The notes below the pieces were generated by a model. That model ran no database searches, had not been told where the DNA came from, and saw only the letters and a list, made by a program, of their open reading frames with translations. This document shows, one piece after another, positions 3,001 through 17,906 of a stretch of DNA of 64,000 bases. A program made the position numbers and the translations under genes. Origin of the DNA: Microbacterium sp. ProA8 (GTDB lineage Bacteria; Actinomycetota; Actinomycetes; Actinomycetales; Microbacteriaceae). The first letter of the stretch is position 1. Each line of letters begins with the position of its first letter. Location: NCBI RefSeq assembly GCF_039905635.1, contig NZ_CP157000.1, positions 3,410,001 through 3,474,000 of the forward strand. The letters run 5' to 3'.

Positions 3001-6000
3001 TGAGCGACACCGGGCCGCTGGCCGAGACGTCACGGGCGATGGATGCCTCGGCCTCGTGATCGACGCTGGCCAGGGCGAACGAGATCGTCAGCGCGAGCGA
3101 CGAGCCGGTTCCGGCCTTGGTCGCGCCGGTCGCGGACGTCGTCGCCTTCGCGGTCTGCGACGCGGTCGCCGCGAGCGAGGCGAGCGTGAGCGCCGTTCCG
3201 GTGAGGACGCCGGCGAAAGTGCGGACGTTGTGGACGGCGATGCTCGCCACGCCCGTGAGCGTCGCGCTCGTTCCGCCGTCCGAACCGCCGACGGTCTCAG
3301 TGGTCGCGTCGTCAGAACCCGTCGCGGTCAGTGTGAGGGCGCCGATGCCGGTGGGCGTCGCCCCGGCTGCCACCGCGGCGATGATGTCGTCGCGGATCAG
3401 ACTGAGCGCGACCGATGCGCCCGCGCCCACCGCGCTGCCGTTGTCCCCGCCGAGCTCCTGCTTTGCCGTCGCCTTCGCGGTGCTCTTGTGGCTGCCGCGG
3501 GCCGTGACGGCGACGGCGCGGTTCGCGAACGATCCGGCGCCGTCGATCGTCGCCGAGGTCAGCGCGTCGATCTTCGCCAGGGCGAATGAGCCCGCCACGG
3601 CGATCGATCCGCCCGAGGTCTTCTTGCCCGAGACCGCCGTCGCCGTGAACGAGGAGTCCCCGGCGTCCGGCCCCTCGGCGGCGATGGTCAGGCCGCCCGC
3701 GGCATCGAGGGCGCCGCCCTGCACGAAGGCCCTCGTCGCGAGATCCGTGATGAGCAGCGCGACGCCGATGCCGACGCCGTTTCCGCTCGCCCCGCCGGTG
3801 CCGGTCGTGGTGCCGCCGTCGCCGGTGACCGCGATCGTGTTCTTGCCGCGCGCCGTCACCTTCTGCGCGCCGGTCGTCGTGACCTTGGCGCCCACGATGC
3901 GACCGGTCGTGTGGGTGCTCGTCAGCGCCATGCCGAACGCGCCGGCGACGCTGAGCGCGCCGTCGCTCGTGCTCGCCTGGCCGTTGCCGCGGTCGGCGTC
4001 GTTCGGACCCTTGTTGCTGTTGTTCTGCGAGGCGCCTCCCGGGCTCGCCTTGGCGGTCGCCGTGACGGTCGCCGTCTGCGACGCGAGGATGTCGAGCGAT
4101 GCCGCGGAGGTGCCGGTCGCGTTGGTGGAGTCGATCGCGGCATCGGTCGCCTGCACGAGTCGCGCGAACGCGATGCCGGCGCCGCTTCCCGCCTCGTGCG
4201 CGTCACCCACCGCGTTCAGCGTGGCGGTGTTCGCCGCCGCGATCCCGAGCGCTCCCCCGATGATCATCCGGGCGTTGCCCGTCACCTTGCCGATCGCGCT
4301 CGCCGTCACGCTCAGGATCGCCACCGCGGCGTCGAAGCTGCCGCTCACCGGATCCTCGTCCTTGGACGGGTCGGTCTGCGGCGTCGCTCCGACGTCCACT
4401 GTCGAGGTGGCCGAGATCGTCGCCGCGCCGTCGATGTCGACGACCGCGTCGCCGTCGATGGTCGCGGAGGCGTTCGAGGTGACGAACGCGGCGTCGCCAT
4501 AGTCCTTGATGAGGGTCACGGGTCCGACGACCGACGAGGCCGTCGCAATGAAGGCGCCGGTGGCGGTGATGGCCGCGGCCCCGCGCACGGCGACGATCGC
4601 GTCGGCGTTCGCGAGGATGAGGTAGGCGGTGCCCGCGGTGGCATCGGGCACAACGGTGGCCGTCGCCGTCAGCGTGATCCCGCCGGTGGCGGCGCCGCCG
4701 TCACCCGTCGCATGGAGCTGGCCGCCGTCGATGATCACCGAGGCGTCGGCGTCGTGGTCGAGGCATTCGGTGATGCTGAAGTCGTCGAAGTCCGTGCAGT
4801 CGGCCACATTGACCGGGATGCCGTCGGTGTTGCTCTCGGAGGCGGTCAGCGTGATGTCGCCCGCGCTCAGCGAGCCGGTCACCGTGATCGCCTCGAACTC
4901 GGCCACGAACGCCGCGAACCCCAGGATGATGACGTCGACGATGGTCAGCGAGTCGCGCCCGCCGCCGCCCGTGATCTTGAGCACGGTGCCCGTGCCGACC
5001 GGGGCCGCGAACGTCGTCGTCTCGAAGGTGCCGTTGGCGCTGCGCAGCTGCAGCTGTCCGGCGGCGGGTCCCGCCTCGAGGATCGCCTCGTCGTCGTCGT
5101 CGGCGAGCGCGAACTCGACGCCGGCGCCGGGGTCGTTATCGGCGACGATCGGCTCGATGCCGGCGTACTCGACGCGCGTCGCGCCGAAGTGCATCACGCC
5201 GCTCGAGCCGTCCGTCGGCTGCGAGCTGAAGCCGCCGCCGCCGCGGGTGGCGAGCGTGTCGAAGCCTGCCGCACCGTCGAAGCCCACCGTGATCGCGGGG
5301 TTCGCACCGCCGAAGTCGATCGTGAACGTGTCGTCGCCGGAGGTGCCGGTCACGCGGATCTCGGAGATCTCGGACAGCGAGCGGGTGACCCCCTCGAACG
5401 AGACGGTGCCGTCGCCGTGGAAGACCAGTGATGACGCCGTGCCCGACATCGTGAGCACCCACGGGGCGGGTGCCGGCGGCGCTGCAGGTGCCGAGTCGGC
5501 AGGCGCCGGCTCGGACGGCGCGGGGCCGGAGGGCGCGGGATCGGTCGCGGGCGCCGGGTCGACGACCACGGGCTGAGGCGCGGGGTCGGACGGCGCGGGC
5601 TCCGGTGCCGGCGCGGGCGCGGGATCGGGGGCCGGCTCCGGCGCAGGCGGAGGGTCGGCGGGCGCCGGCGTCTCGGCCGGAGCCGTGTCGGCCGGGGCCG
5701 TCTCGGTCGGCGGTGCGACGTCGGTCGCGTCGAACGGCCGCACGTTCAGGGCCGCGGGCTGCCCGATCATCTCGGGTGCCGGGGTGGACGCGCGTCCCTC
5801 GGAGGGCGCCGCAGCGACGAGTGCTGAGGTGGGCGCCGGGTCGGCCTCGCGGGCGAAGGGGGCGGTCGTGGCGGGGGTGGCGTTCGCGTTCGCGGGCACA
5901 CCGAAGGGGATCGCGATGCTCACCGCGACGGCGATCGCCGTCGCGTACGCAAGCATGGCGAACGCCGCGCCCCGAGAGCGCTTCGTCCCCTGTCCCCAAC

Positions 6001-7377: not shown

Positions 7378-9183
7378 TCAGTCTACGTCGGGGGTGGTTT
7401 CGGGCCGGGCGGGGCGGGCTCCGGCCGGTTCACGGTCTGCGAGCGACGCGAGATGCCGCTGGGCGAACTGCTCGACGGCGCCGTCGAGCGCGGGGTCCTC
7501 ACCGCGGGCGAGACCGGCGTACTCGAGCTGCACGGTATGGCCCTGCGGCGTCGCGCGCACCCACATCCGCCGACGCGGGATGAACAGCGCGGCGAGGAGG
7601 CCCGCGGTGGCGAGCACCGCGAACACCAGCACCCACGTGGCCGCCGCGTCACGGTGGATCGACAGCGACACGTAGCGCTTGACCGAGTCCTGGAACCCGG
7701 CCGCGCCCTCGGGCGCCTCGTTCTCGAACGTGACGGTCCCGAGCCCGTCGGGCAGGTCGACGGTCTCGCCGGGCTTCAGCTCGAGCGACTCGGCGCCCGA
7801 GTCGCCGCCCGCGAGCTGCGTCATCTCCGCGGGATCGAGCGTGTAGACCGACTTCGGCACGCCGCCGTCGATGCCGAGGTCGCCGGCGTAGACCCAGAAC
7901 GTGAGCATCGGGTACTCGAGGTCGCCGTACACCGACGTGAGGGCGCCGTTGGTGAGCTCCTGGGCCGTCGGATAGAAGAAGCCCACCATGCCGACCTGCT
8001 CGCGCAGCCCGTCGGGCACCTTCACGACGCCCTGCGAGGTCATGTTGTTGTCCTGCGGCAGGAAGGGCACCGGCTCGGAGAAGACCACGTCGCCGTCGCT
8101 GTCACGGACCGTGATGGTCGGGGCGTAGCCGTTGCCCATGAGATAGACCTTGTCACCCGCGATCTGCAGCGGGTGGTTGACGCGCACCTCGCCCGTGCCG
8201 GCGTCGGCGTCCGGGAACTGGGTCGACAGGTGCGCGACGAAGTCGCCCGCCTGGCCCGCACCCTGCTGGCCGGGTGCCACGTACGACAGCGAGAAGTCGT
8301 CGAGAGTGAGCGCGTACGGCGTGAGGGCGTCCTCGTCGACGAACCGGCCCGGGTTGAACGAGGTGTAGTCGAGCATCGTGTTGACCCAGGTGCGGCCCTC
8401 GATGATGACGGTCTGCCCGGTGTAGGTGAACCCGCCGCCGATGCCGACGGCCAGCAGCACGCCCACCAGCGAGGCATGGAAGACGAGGTTGCCGGTCTCG
8501 CGGAGGTAGCCGCGCTCGGCCGAGACCGAGAACGCCCTGCCGCCGTCGTACCTCGCGACGCGGTAGCCGGCCTTGCGCAACTGCTGCTGTGCGGCGTCGA
8601 CGGCCGCCCCCGCGGCGGCTGCGGCATCCTGATCGGCCTGGCACTCGAGGATCTCGGAGCGATGCACGTCCAGCCGCGACAGGCGCGCGGGTGTGCGCGG
8701 CGGCTGCGCGCGCATCGCCTTGTAGTGGTGCTTCGTGCGCGGGATGACGCAGCCGACGAGCGAGACGAACAGCAGGATGTAGATCGCCGAGAACCACGGC
8801 GACGTGTACACGTCGAACAGGCTCAGGTTGTCGAGCACCGGCGCGAGGTCGGGATTGTCGACGAAGTACTGGCGCACGCCGTTCGGGTCGGCGCTGCGCT
8901 GCGGCACGAGCGACCCGGGCACCGCCGCGATGGCGAGCAGCAGCAGGAGCACGAGCGCGGTGCGCATCGAGGTGAGCTGGCGCCAGCCCCACCGCAGCCA
9001 TCCCACGACGCCGAGCGCCGGCTGGGTGATGCCATCGGGGGCGGATGCCGGGTCGGCCGCGTCCGCGTGATCGGCCGGACGCAGCGGGTCGGCCGCCGCC
9101 GACCCGGTCGCCGTGCCGGTCGAAGCGGCGGAGCCGGTCGGGACGTCAGGGCCGGTCGAGGCGTCAGAGCGGGGCCGGGACAC
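7378..9183 (-). CDS. resB: Cytochrome c biogenesis protein ResB
   Basis: Partner of CcsB in System II cytochrome c maturation. About 601 residues from GTG 9183. A disordered Ala/Thr/Asp-rich N terminus (about 60 residues) precedes the first membrane segment (SMRTALVLLLLLAIAAVPG), the typical SADPNGVRQYF region, two further central helices, a large extracytoplasmic domain, and a C-terminal helix near residue 535. GTG 9183 is preferred over the longer in-frame GTG at 9228 because a good Shine-Dalgarno stretch (AGGGGG) lies 8-9 nt upstream and the overlap with ccdA is then only 20 bp. The substrate-binding residues are not obvious from sequence. Confidence 0.93.
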   Translation of the reverse strand: MSRPRSDASTGPDVPTGSAASTGTATGSAAADPLRPADHADAADPASAPDGITQPALGVVGWLRWGWRQLTSMRTALVLLLLLAIAAVPGSLVPQRSADPNGVRQYFVDNPDLAPVLDNLSLFDVYTSPWFSAIYILLFVSLVGCVIPRTKHHYKAMRAQPPRTPARLSRLDVHRSEILECQADQDAAAAAGAAVDAAQQQLRKAGYRVARYDGGRAFSVSAERGYLRETGNLVFHASLVGVLLAVGIGGGFTYTGQTVIIEGRTWVNTMLDYTSFNPGRFVDEDALTPYALTLDDFSLSYVAPGQQGAGQAGDFVAHLSTQFPDADAGTGEVRVNHPLQIAGDKVYLMGNGYAPTITVRDSDGDVVFSEPVPFLPQDNNMTSQGVVKVPDGLREQVGMVGFFYPTAQELTNGALTSVYGDLEYPMLTFWVYAGDLGIDGGVPKSVYTLDPAEMTQLAGGDSGAESLELKPGETVDLPDGLGTVTFENEAPEGAAGFQDSVKRYVSLSIHRDAAATWVLVFAVLATAGLLAALFIPRRRMWVRATPQGHTVQLEYAGLARGEDPALDGAVEQFAQRHLASLADREPAGARPARPETTPDVD

Positions 9184-15392: not shown

Positions 15393-15406
15393 GGTGCGGA
15401 TGCCGC

Positions 15407-15505
15407 TTACTTCTTGTTGCGGCGCTGGTGGCGAGTCTTGCGAAGCAGCTTGCGGTGCTTCTTCTTCGCCATGCGCTTGCGGCGCTTCTTGATGACAGAA
15501 CCCAC
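15407..15505 (-). CDS. 30S ribosomal protein bS22 (AURKAIP1/COX24 domain, 32 residues)
   Basis: GTG 15505 to TAA gives a 32-residue, extremely basic peptide: VGSVIKKRRKRMAKKKH then RKLLRKTRHQRRNKK. This is nearly identical in pattern to the small-subunit protein bS22 of mycobacteria, a component of the actinobacterial ribosome. In mycobacteria this gene sits directly beside a small HTH gene (the Rv0500A/Rv0500B pair). Here the two are pushed apart by the SDR/sigma cassette. A UUCG hairpin terminator follows. Confidence 0.93.
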   Translation of the reverse strand: MGSVIKKRRKRMAKKKHRKLLRKTRHQRRNKK

Positions 15506-15590
15506 GGAAAACCTCACTATGTCGGGGTCTGGGCGCGGCGTGTGCGGCGCCCGGGAACGAGCAGATACGAAAAATGCCTCGGATCAGTCT

Positions 15591-15632
15591 AGCCGACGTC
15601 GGCGATCGGCCGTTGCAGGGCTTCGGTGACGG
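15591..15632. repeat. 42-bp direct repeat, left copy
   Basis: Identical over 42 bp to 17717-17758, the last coding bases of the HTH gene. This copy keeps a stop codon in the same frame (TAG instead of TGA) and lies between bS22 and the SDR gene. It looks like the original 3' end of the HTH gene left behind after insertion. Confidence 0.9.
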
Positions 15633-15642
15633 GGGCCCCGGC

Positions 15643-16371
15643 TCATACTGCCGGTTCGAGCAGCGCCGCATTGGCCCGCTCGAACGCCTTGAGCTGTCCG
15701 TTGTTCCAGCCTTGCTCGAACTGGACCGAGACCGGGTCGGGGAAGATCTCGTCCGCTCCGCGCGCGAGCCCGTCGTAGATCGCCGCGGCCACGACCGACG
15801 GCGCCGTCTTCGGGATATCGAGAGCGCTCGTCATGTCGGTGTCCATCGGTCCGGCGAGCACCGCGTGCACGCGGATGCCCCGCGCAGCCAGCAGTCCGCG
15901 CTGCGCTTGCGACACCGAGAGCAGCGCGGCCTTCGAGACGGAGTACGAGGCCATCACGGGGAGGTTGGCCAGGGCGGCGATCGACCCCACGTTCACGACG
16001 GCGCCGCCGCGGGCCGCGAGCGAGGCGACGAGGGCGTTCGTCAGGCGCACCGGCCCCAGCAGGTTCACGCTCAGGTGCTCCTCGAGCACGCCGGGATCGG
16101 TGAGATCGTCGAACAGACCGAGGGCGGCATTGTTGATCAGGATGTCGACATCGGGGGCCTGCGCGGCGACGTCGTCGATCGAGCCCTGGTCCGCGACGTC
16201 CAATTCCAGGCGCGTCACGCGCGCATCCGGATGCGCGAACACCGTGCGGGAGGCGGCGTACACGCGCGCCGCGCCGCGTTCCAGCGCACCGTCGACGAGC
16301 GCTCGGCCGAGTCCGCGGCTCGCGCCGGTGATGAGCAGGGTCCGCCGTTCGAGAGCGTGTTCATTAGGCAT
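15643..16371 (-). CDS. SDR family NAD(P)-dependent oxidoreductase
   Basis: 242 residues, classical short-chain dehydrogenase. The cofactor motif TGASRGLGRAL is at about residue 15, NNAALGLF near 87, catalytic Ser in VNVGSIAAL and YSVSK near residue 145 supplying Tyr and Lys. An Arg in the first motif and no acidic residue after beta-2 point to NADPH, an inference. It is divergent from the ECF sigma gene with 156 bp between. Oxidoreductase genes next to SnoaL-tailed ECF sigma factors are a recurrent actinobacterial arrangement, so it is probably the sigma factor's target. Confidence 0.88.
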   Translation of the reverse strand: MPNEHALERRTLLITGASRGLGRALVDGALERGAARVYAASRTVFAHPDARVTRLELDVADQGSIDDVAAQAPDVDILINNAALGLFDDLTDPGVLEEHLSVNLLGPVRLTNALVASLAARGGAVVNVGSIAALANLPVMASYSVSKAALLSVSQAQRGLLAARGIRVHAVLAGPMDTDMTSALDIPKTAPSVVAAAIYDGLARGADEIFPDPVSVQFEQGWNNGQLKAFERANAALLEPAV

Positions 16372-16473
16372 CGCAGTCTCCTTCCAGAAACGATTCGCTC
16401 ATGCAGACGCACCGAACGAGTCCAACTGGTCACCGCCCCGGGATGCCGCGCGACCGATTCCCGGCGGTCGCGG

Positions 16474-16501
16474 TGTCGACAAGAGTGTGGAACGGGACGA
16501 T
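16474..16501 (+). promoter_or_regulatory. Possible ECF-type promoter of the sigma factor gene
   Basis: TGTCGAC (16474-16480), 17-nt spacer, CGAT (16498-16501), ending 26 bp before the sigma-factor ATG. This resembles the TGTCACA / CGTC promoters recognised by SnoaL-tailed ECF sigma factors, and would mean autoregulation. The match is partial. Confidence 0.3.
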
Positions 16502-16527
16502 GATCCCGATGGGGAAGGCGAGGCGTC

Positions 16528-17511
16528 ATGACCGATCACCTGCTCAGGGCAGCGCGCGCGGGCGACCGCGCGGCGTTCGACGCACTCGTCGATGAGCATC
16601 GTCGCGAACTGCACGTCCACTGCTATCGCATGCTCGGCTCGGTTCAGGATGCCGAAGACGCGGTCCAGGAGACGCTCCTGAGCGCATGGCTCGGCCTGGC
16701 CGGATTCGAGGGCCGCTCATCGGTGCGCACATGGCTGTACCGCATCGCGACCAACCGCTGTCTCAATCTCTTGCGTGCCGGTCGGCGAGCGCCCCAGCCC
16801 GCCGACCCGGCCGCACTGCCGACGGCGCGCGGCGAGGTGATGTGGCTGCAGCCCTACCCGGATTCCCTGTTCGACGACATCCCCGACGACGCTCCTGGGC
16901 CGGAGACCCGCTACGAGTCGCGGGACGCCATCTCGCTCGCCTTCACGCGGGCGCTGCAGCTCCTGCCTCCGTCGCAGCGCGCGGCGCTGCTCATGCGCGA
17001 TGTGCTCGGGTACCCCGCTGCCGAGGCCGCCGAGTTGCTGGGCGTCTCGGTCGACGCACTGAACGGCTCGCTCAAGAGGGCGCGCGCCGCGCTCGCCACG
17101 ACGCCCGCCCGCAGGGATGCAACCACCCCGGATCCCGAGCTCCTCGAGCGGTTCGTGACCGCCTTCCTGTCCGACGACGTCAGCGCCCTCGTCGCGCTCA
17201 TGACCGACGACGTGTGGGTGCGCATGCCGCCGCTGCCGTACGAGTACCACGGCCCCAGCGCCGCAGCGGCGTTCTTCGGCGCGGTCGCCGACCATCGGCG
17301 CACCATCGAACGGATGGTGCCGACGTCCGCGAACCGTCAGCCTGCCTGGGGCGAGTACGCGCGGGATGCCACCACGGGATGCCTCCGGCTGGTCGGCGTC
17401 CTCGTGATCGGCGTGGCCGGTCGCCGGATCGATGAGCTCACACATTTCGACACGTCGGTCGCTCCCTTGCTCGGGCTGCCGCGGAGTGTCGCGTGGCCTG
17501 AGCGTCAGTGA
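16528..17511 (+). CDS. ECF sigma factor with C-terminal SnoaL-like domain
   Basis: 327 residues. Region 2 (AGDRAAFDALVDEHRRELHVHCYRML; DAEDAVQETLLSAWLGL) and region 4 (LPPSQRAALLMRDVLGYPAAEAAELLGVS...LKRARAAL) give a complete ECF sigma factor. From about residue 205 a SnoaL/NTF2-like extension follows (FVTAFLSDDVSALVALMTDDVWVRMPP, YHGPSAAAAFF), as in SigG/SigJ-like factors, where the extension replaces a separate anti-sigma factor. ATG 16528 has a GAAGGCGAGG site upstream. No anti-sigma gene is adjacent. The likely targets are itself and the divergent SDR. Confidence 0.9.
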   Translation: MTDHLLRAARAGDRAAFDALVDEHRRELHVHCYRMLGSVQDAEDAVQETLLSAWLGLAGFEGRSSVRTWLYRIATNRCLNLLRAGRRAPQPADPAALPTARGEVMWLQPYPDSLFDDIPDDAPGPETRYESRDAISLAFTRALQLLPPSQRAALLMRDVLGYPAAEAAELLGVSVDALNGSLKRARAALATTPARRDATTPDPELLERFVTAFLSDDVSALVALMTDDVWVRMPPLPYEYHGPSAAAAFFGAVADHRRTIERMVPTSANRQPAWGEYARDATTGCLRLVGVLVIGVAGRRIDELTHFDTSVAPLLGLPRSVAWPERQ

Positions 17512-17714
17512 CCTGACGCCTCAAGCGCTTCGCGCATCGCGGCCAGACGTCGATGTCGGGTTCGAGTCGGTCGCCGGTGCACCCCACGTCTTCCGGGCCT
17601 GGGCGGACGGCGCACGGGACGAGGCGGACTCGGCGCTCGGACGGAGCGGGGACATTCCTTCCGCAACGGCTCCTCGCGCGGGCAGGGGCCACCGTCGCAG
17701 ACTGACGGCGGTTC

Positions 17715-17906
17715 TCAGCCGACGTCGGCGATCGGCCGTTGCAGGGCTTCGGTGACGGCGGACTCGGGCACCCGGTAGCTGCGGCCGAAGCGGACCGCGG
17801 GCAGTTCTCCGGAGTGCACGAGGCGGTAGACCGTCATCTTGGACACGCGCATGAGCTCCGCGACCTCGGCGACCGTGAGGAAGCGCACATCGGACAACTC
17901 AGCCAT
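17715..17906 (-). CDS. BldC/MerR-type helix-turn-helix DNA-binding protein
   Basis: 63 residues, a single winged-helix domain: FLTVAEVAELMRVSKMTVYRLVHSGELPAVRFGRSYRVPESAV. This is the small excisionase/BldC-like family conserved across actinobacteria, usually beside the bS22 gene. ATG 17906 has a GGAAGGA ribosome site 6 nt upstream. Its last 42 coding bases are duplicated at 15591-15632. DNA-binding regulator; target unknown. Confidence 0.9.
   Translation of the reverse strand: MAELSDVRFLTVAEVAELMRVSKMTVYRLVHSGELPAVRFGRSYRVPESAVTEALQRPIADVG
17717..17758. repeat. 42-bp direct repeat, right copy (HTH gene 3' end)
   Basis: Forms the live 3' end of the HTH gene (stop TGA at 17715-17717) and matches 15591-15632 base for base. 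Outside the 42 bp the two flanks diverge at once on both sides, so the edges are sharp. Confidence 0.9.

Follow-up and report, generated by a model that had tools for sequence, protein, structure and literature searches.

Attachment sites are the usual interpretation of exact repeats that accompany a restored gene end. The repeats used by tyrosine recombinases measure 8–60 bp, and elements that retain such repeats after loss of their integrase (CIMEs) have been described (PMC5704250). In ECF41 modules, the gene for a SnoaL-tailed sigma factor stands beside a gene for a carboxymuconolactone decarboxylase, an oxidoreductase or an epimerase (PMC3426412, PMC8999054), and ECF41 sigma factors have been reported to regulate themselves and the neighbouring target gene (PMC3426412). 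SnoaL_2 tails are found not only in ECF41 but also in ECF groups 205, 294 and 295, and the ECF56 sigma factor SigG1 of Streptomyces tsukubaensis combines sigma2, sigma4 and SnoaL_2 domains (PMC7730460).

The locus analysed here resembles an ECF41-type module in that a SnoaL-tailed sigma factor adjoins an oxidoreductase gene (PMC3426412, PMC8999054), in its divergent gene order, one of several known there, and in the similar motif that precedes both genes. However, the SigJ-type model NF007214 gave a score of 100.9 bits, far under its cut-off of 271, which does not place the sigma factor in ECF41, whereas the model score and the SnoaL_2 domain make it a member of the SnoaL-tailed ECF sigma factors of TIGR02960 (Table 1). 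The motifs also differ, lying near CCRRTT-N13-GYGTC here as against TGTCACA-N16-CGTC in ECF41. The likeness to SigG1, also actinobacterial, lies in the sigma2, sigma4 and SnoaL_2 domains (PMC7730460). As in a CIME, direct repeats occur at a gene 3′ end with no integrase between them (PMC5704250); unlike in a CIME, no integrase-bearing relative was found, and an overlap of gene end and promoter may explain the repeats. No paper on this locus was found, as judged by title or start of abstract, and we make no claim that promoter overlap is new to the literature.

An exact 42-bp repeat bounds the SDR/sigma pair

Direct comparison of the two copies of the repeat showed identity at 42 of 42 bases, with an offset of 2126 (Table 1). 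A pattern search of the 4.37-Mb genome found them to be the sole places with three or fewer mismatches, and the reversed pattern, used as a control, gave 0 matches. When 9 bases were added to the repeat, identity fell to 48/51 (94%). The repeat takes in 41 sense bases from the HTH gene and one base, the initial T, of its stop codon. The two remaining stop-codon bases come in each case from the flank, giving TAG on the left (15589–15591) and TGA on the right (17715–17717). The window, by which we mean the whole 64,000-nucleotide stretch analysed, lies within a single-contig 4.37-Mb chromosome, and an assembly error is therefore unlikely as the source of the repeat.

An initial annotation, made from the sequence of the window, had described an exact duplication of the last 42 bases of the HTH gene, a stop codon in each copy, and nothing but two genes between them. 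All of this was borne out: only the divergent SDR gene and the SnoaL-tailed ECF sigma gene lie between the copies, together with 205 bp in which no gene was recognised. The SDR stop is 10 bp from the left copy. The 205-bp stretch matched no NCBIfam family in the one frame tried and had no second copy in its own genome; its plasmid matches were short, and none covered 80% of it. Foreign origin by base composition was considered and set aside, as the comparison (GC content of 70.4% versus 71.2%) was uninformative.

Table 1. Features of the locus, with positions in the window
Feature	Positions	Strand	Basis or remark
bS22 (30S ribosomal protein), 36 aa	15407..15517	-	NCBIfam NF047430, 58.7 bits (cut-off 34)
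TAGACT, probable -10 element of bS22, with the stop codon of the old HTH end as its TAG	15586..15591	-	Conservation of TAGACT and the GAGGCATTTT after it at loci whose HTH gene lies apart from them
Left 42-bp copy, the native end of the HTH gene, with a present role probably confined to the upstream promoter region of bS22	15591..15632	-	
SDR-family oxidoreductase, 242 aa	15643..16371	-	Pfam PF00106, 109.5 bits; an ordinary short-chain dehydrogenase
SDR/sigma intergenic stretch	16372-16527		
Candidate ECF promoter before the SDR gene, CCAGTT-N13-GCGTC	16406..16429	-	Motif comparison of divergent pairs
Candidate ECF promoter before the sigma gene, CCGATT-N13-GTGTC	16454..16477	+	Motif comparison of divergent pairs
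ECF sigma factor with SnoaL_2 C-terminal domain, 327 aa	16528..17511	+	TIGR02960, 312.9 bits (cut-off 264.75); SnoaL_2 PF12680, 28.4 (cut-off 27)
205-bp stretch downstream of the sigma gene	17512..17716		No recognised gene
Right 42-bp copy: present HTH gene end	17717..17758	-	
HTH gene (excisionase-family HTH_17), 63 aa, stop TGA	17715..17906	-	TIGR01764, 72.9 bits (cut-off 28.8); PF12728, 63 bits (cut-off 27)

The pair is a lineage-specific insertion

A search of 295 genus genomes recovered the HTH gene from 287, and 149 of the HTH–bS22 junctions were examined. No comparable insert was present in 147 of these. The exceptions were this genome (G000) and G158, a draft genome of many contigs and 72% completeness that we treat as a MAG, with an ABC transporter at the junction. 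The SDR/ECF-sigma pair is therefore a lineage-specific insertion between HTH and bS22. A DNA search with the whole locus over 345 genus genomes (E 1e-30) found the same insert at this site in no other genome. Apart from this genome, the pair was present only in M. salsuginis; sigma-only matches occurred in G090 and G097, and four other genomes gave an 84-bp match at the HTH end.

The HTH end was contiguous with the native following sequence, at the same offset, in 114 of 115 genomes, and this genome alone was displaced, by 2126 bp; the comparison extends as far as GAGGCATTTT, stopping short of bS22, and rests on 120 HTH rows and 115 junction rows taken by hand among the matches listed. Locus reading added G226, G019, G223, G129 and 29 further genomes, in which bS22 began 122–683 bp past the HTH stop. 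For the 58 other genomes read, the distance from HTH stop to bS22 was 122–126 bp in 31, 159–218 bp in 22, 654–683 bp in four that have a small extra ORF, and 2724 bp in G158. The nearest loci by flank among 59 (G100, G051, G226 and G261) were all empty.

At the empty sites, as in the left copy, the sequence is GGCTAGACTG or a near variant. TAG is followed by ACTG or AATG, as in the left copy, in 28 of 30 loci, the two exceptions being G158 and the right copy in this genome. The left copy is thus the old end of the HTH gene, and the new, right copy restored that gene, as had been proposed; the TGA of the right copy is supplied by the insert. HTH and bS22 had also been described as usual neighbours, and bS22 lies past the HTH gene in 27 of 29 loci read across the order, these being the best-scoring ones (23 of the 59 genomes searched gave no HTH match at 1e-12).

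The HTH gene end is probably also the bS22 promoter

The HTH stop forms part of a TAGACT or TAGAAT element before bS22 in 67 of 97 loci, a proportion that is not a genus frequency, as 40 of the 98 input loci were picked from genomes matching the junction pattern. The set of 97 omits L005 (own locus), L043 (genome of L022), L044 (a chimeric MAG) and the re-fetches L073 and L074; L216 gave no HTH gene. The overlap class was defined strictly, so that L221 and L236, with TAA stops, and L056, with another TAG stop, were counted in the other class. The sequence before bS22 is TAGACTG..GAGGCATTTT. At 25 other loci, G158 included, TAGACT (variant in two) with GAGGCATTTT or a near form precedes bS22 apart from the present HTH stop, and in some species TTTGC precedes the TAGACT element, well past the HTH stop TGA. 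No promoter-like TAGACT element was found before bS22 in L022, L056 or L058. Placement of the HTH stop within the element in the 67 loci, and separation of the two in most other loci read, suggest that the 42 bp probably act both as the end of the HTH gene and as the promoter of bS22. We infer a promoter with the HTH stop inside its -10 element and its upstream part in the last HTH codons.

Codon choice at the HTH gene end differed between the two classes. Gln codon 56 was CAA in 50 of 60 overlap loci versus 2 of 22 elsewhere (Fisher 8e-10, with species not independent), and the Gln codons of four neighbouring genes comprised 1 CAA versus 41 CAG. CAA occurred at codon 56 in 27/28 loci of the first sample, which were partly ranked by HTH identity, versus 23/33 in the second. 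The Arg codon was CGG in 54 of 67 overlap loci versus 4 of 30 others, and codons 62–63 were GTC GGC in all 67. Mean synonymous entropy was 0.11 for the last five codons versus 1.11 for codons 2–49 (1 of 20,000 permutations), as calculated from the 34 full-length rows of the second sample. Over the 97 loci, the entropy of the last five codons was 0.16 in the overlap class versus 0.35 where the promoter stands apart; that it is low in the latter class too counts against promoter overlap. The same is true of the weaker second CAA sample, of the distance between the CAA block and TAGACT, which is long at 18–20 bases (manual count), and of the lack of any sigma-70 site in 15400–15720 by a strict consensus scan.

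Should gene end and promoter overlap in this way, an insertion would have to double that stretch for both genes to keep functioning, and the repeat would not have to be an attachment site. In two genomes from two other families of the order (L179 and L191), the HTH stop likewise continues into TAGACT. The overlap may, on this observation, have arisen more than once.

The insert of G158, an amino-acid ABC transporter (binding protein, permease and ATPase, named by eye), lies between HTH and bS22 at 8727–11114 of L043. The initial annotation had proposed a search for the 42-bp target beside other cargo. No other insert with such a repeat was found among the 149 sites, and that of G158 has only about 7 shared bases, with one mismatch, versus 42 here. 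The remnant before bS22 in G158 keeps GTCGGCTAGACT, and its HTH end has CAG, GTG and TGA. This arrangement fits an overlap of gene end and promoter.

The pair occurs at other sites and is probably self-regulated

In M. salsuginis the pair occupies another site, beside a DUF1992-like gene, and in Agromyces humi its neighbours are a histidyl-tRNA-synthetase-like gene on one side and enolase on the other (all named by eye from translations). No direct repeats of comparable identity were found around the pair in either genome. DNA similarity to these two pairs spans both genes and the intergenic stretch and stops inside the outer gene ends. Common cassette ends or a common att sequence were accordingly rejected. 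Among 83 loci of sigma relatives, inspected to at most about 5 kb on each side, none had the HTH gene nearby. The proposal of a non-autonomous cassette that integrates at a fixed gene end was thus not upheld. Part of the locus was matched by 42 plasmid records, with a best coverage of 31%, and none of these matched most of it; of the matches listed, most were to the sigma gene and two to part of the SDR gene, and one Microbacterium plasmid belongs to the 42 but not to those listed.

Relatives of the sigma factor at E 1e-110 were found in 3 of 398 family genomes, this one included, and in the other two no SDR gene was present in the roughly 4 kb inspected. Across 80 named loci with sigma relatives, an SDR gene adjoined the sigma gene in 14, pointing away from it in 13 and running parallel to it in one, so that the sigma gene and its probable target do occur together in other genomes. 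The divergent intergenic stretches, 14 with that of this locus and 13 others, were compared for the pattern CC[AGC][AGT]T[TC]-N11..17-[GCA][TCG]GTC, in which the spacer is mostly 13 bp. The motif preceded the SDR gene in 12, the sigma gene in 10 and both genes in 9 of the 14, against Markov expectations of 2.87, 1.00 and 0.22, respectively, a control that flatters a pattern shaped by eye on these same sequences. In an earlier enumeration of common word pairs in the intergenic stretches, any one pair was found in at most 6 of 14. The motif before both genes, taken with the precedent described for ECF41 (PMC3426412), supports a putative self-regulated sigma factor with the SDR gene as its target.

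Origin of the repeat

The reading that we favour, with a probability of about 0.55, is that a horizontally acquired pair was inserted once beside the HTH end, and that the 42-bp repeat is a stretch of gene end and promoter kept twice. The SDR/ECF-sigma pair would have entered between HTH and bS22 fairly recently. The last HTH bases probably double as bS22 promoter in many species of the genus, and an insertion would be tolerated only if the overlap stretch ended up on both sides: one 42-bp copy would end the HTH frame and the other would stay before bS22. Most likely, homologous recombination acted on one side only, within the HTH gene, together with an illegitimate join 42 bp short of the gene end, or else the pair was captured where a break was staggered. 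The genome contains a Ku gene, which we count in favour of this explanation. Both the promoter and the selection for its duplication are what we infer from sequence comparison. That 42 exact, gene-restoring bases at a gene end are a classic mark of site-specific integration counts against the promoter-overlap explanation. The main rival is a decayed integrative element (CIME). The 42 bp would then represent attL and attR, and the pair the cargo, of a tyrosine-integrase element whose integrase was lost or which was mobilised in trans. Such elements are known, the exact 42 bp at the gene end fall within the 8–60 bp range of their direct repeats, and one copy restores the gene 3′ end (PMC5704250); in G158, moreover, a further insert has entered at this gene end. 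Against this, none of the four Phage_integrase and four Resolvase domain places in the genome falls within the window, in line with the earlier remark that no recombinase is visible. Neither the 42 bp nor the whole locus had a match in phage records, one degenerate exact pattern had none in viral_contigs, and no other insert with such a repeat occurred among the 149 sites; a related integrase-bearing element at the same site was found in none of these three sources. The pair in M. salsuginis and Agromyces humi also lacks such ends. We regard an origin of this kind as possible but doubtful.

Alternatively, the insertion might first have taken place in an unsampled species, whose entire occupied locus then arrived here by homologous recombination via the genes on either side. 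In favour of such a transfer, the flanks are conserved, and their identity to relatives is uneven by side (92% left and 83% right for L007, 89% and 93% for L008). However, no occupied donor was found among the 345 genus genomes, and the explanation merely shifts the origin elsewhere; we consider it unlikely. A recurrent regulatory cassette with a fixed target, the model of the initial annotation, would account for the repeated occurrence of an SDR gene beside the sigma gene, but is very improbable given the different neighbours and lack of common ends in M. salsuginis and Agromyces humi, and given that the HTH gene was in none of the 83 loci. Under the favoured reading of a gene end and promoter kept twice, a second cause of exact repeats at restored gene ends becomes plausible, namely that the overlap lets only those insertions survive that double it. 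If so, island finders could wrongly call such repeats att sites, and this locus would be a small, testable example of an overlap-driven repeat. The SDR/ECF pair itself is an example of a minimal regulator–target unit, found in different places in different actinobacteria with no visible vehicle.

Possible read-through into bS22, and other junctions

A scan of 15400–15720 found no terminator-like site on the minus strand between the SDR stop and bS22 (15517–15643), and read-through from SDR to bS22 is therefore possible. It is conceivable, if rather unlikely, that an ECF-driven SDR transcript runs through the left 42-bp copy into bS22. The ribosomal protein would then join the ECF regulon, while the doubled end would keep the housekeeping promoter.

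Two further kinds of unusual junction were seen. G239 has two junctions 491 bp apart, the second HTH-end/bS22 junction lying at 3690–3908 of L044. A tandem duplication was rejected, as the second copy starts mid-gene at a contig end in an 81%-complete MAG, which is probably a chimera. In four species (L062, L064, L066 and L070), an ORF of about half a kb, a membrane protein by eye, lies between HTH and bS22; in these species the HTH gene and the bS22 promoter do not overlap. Similar HTH ends, without the small ORF, occur in L067–L069, L071 and L072.
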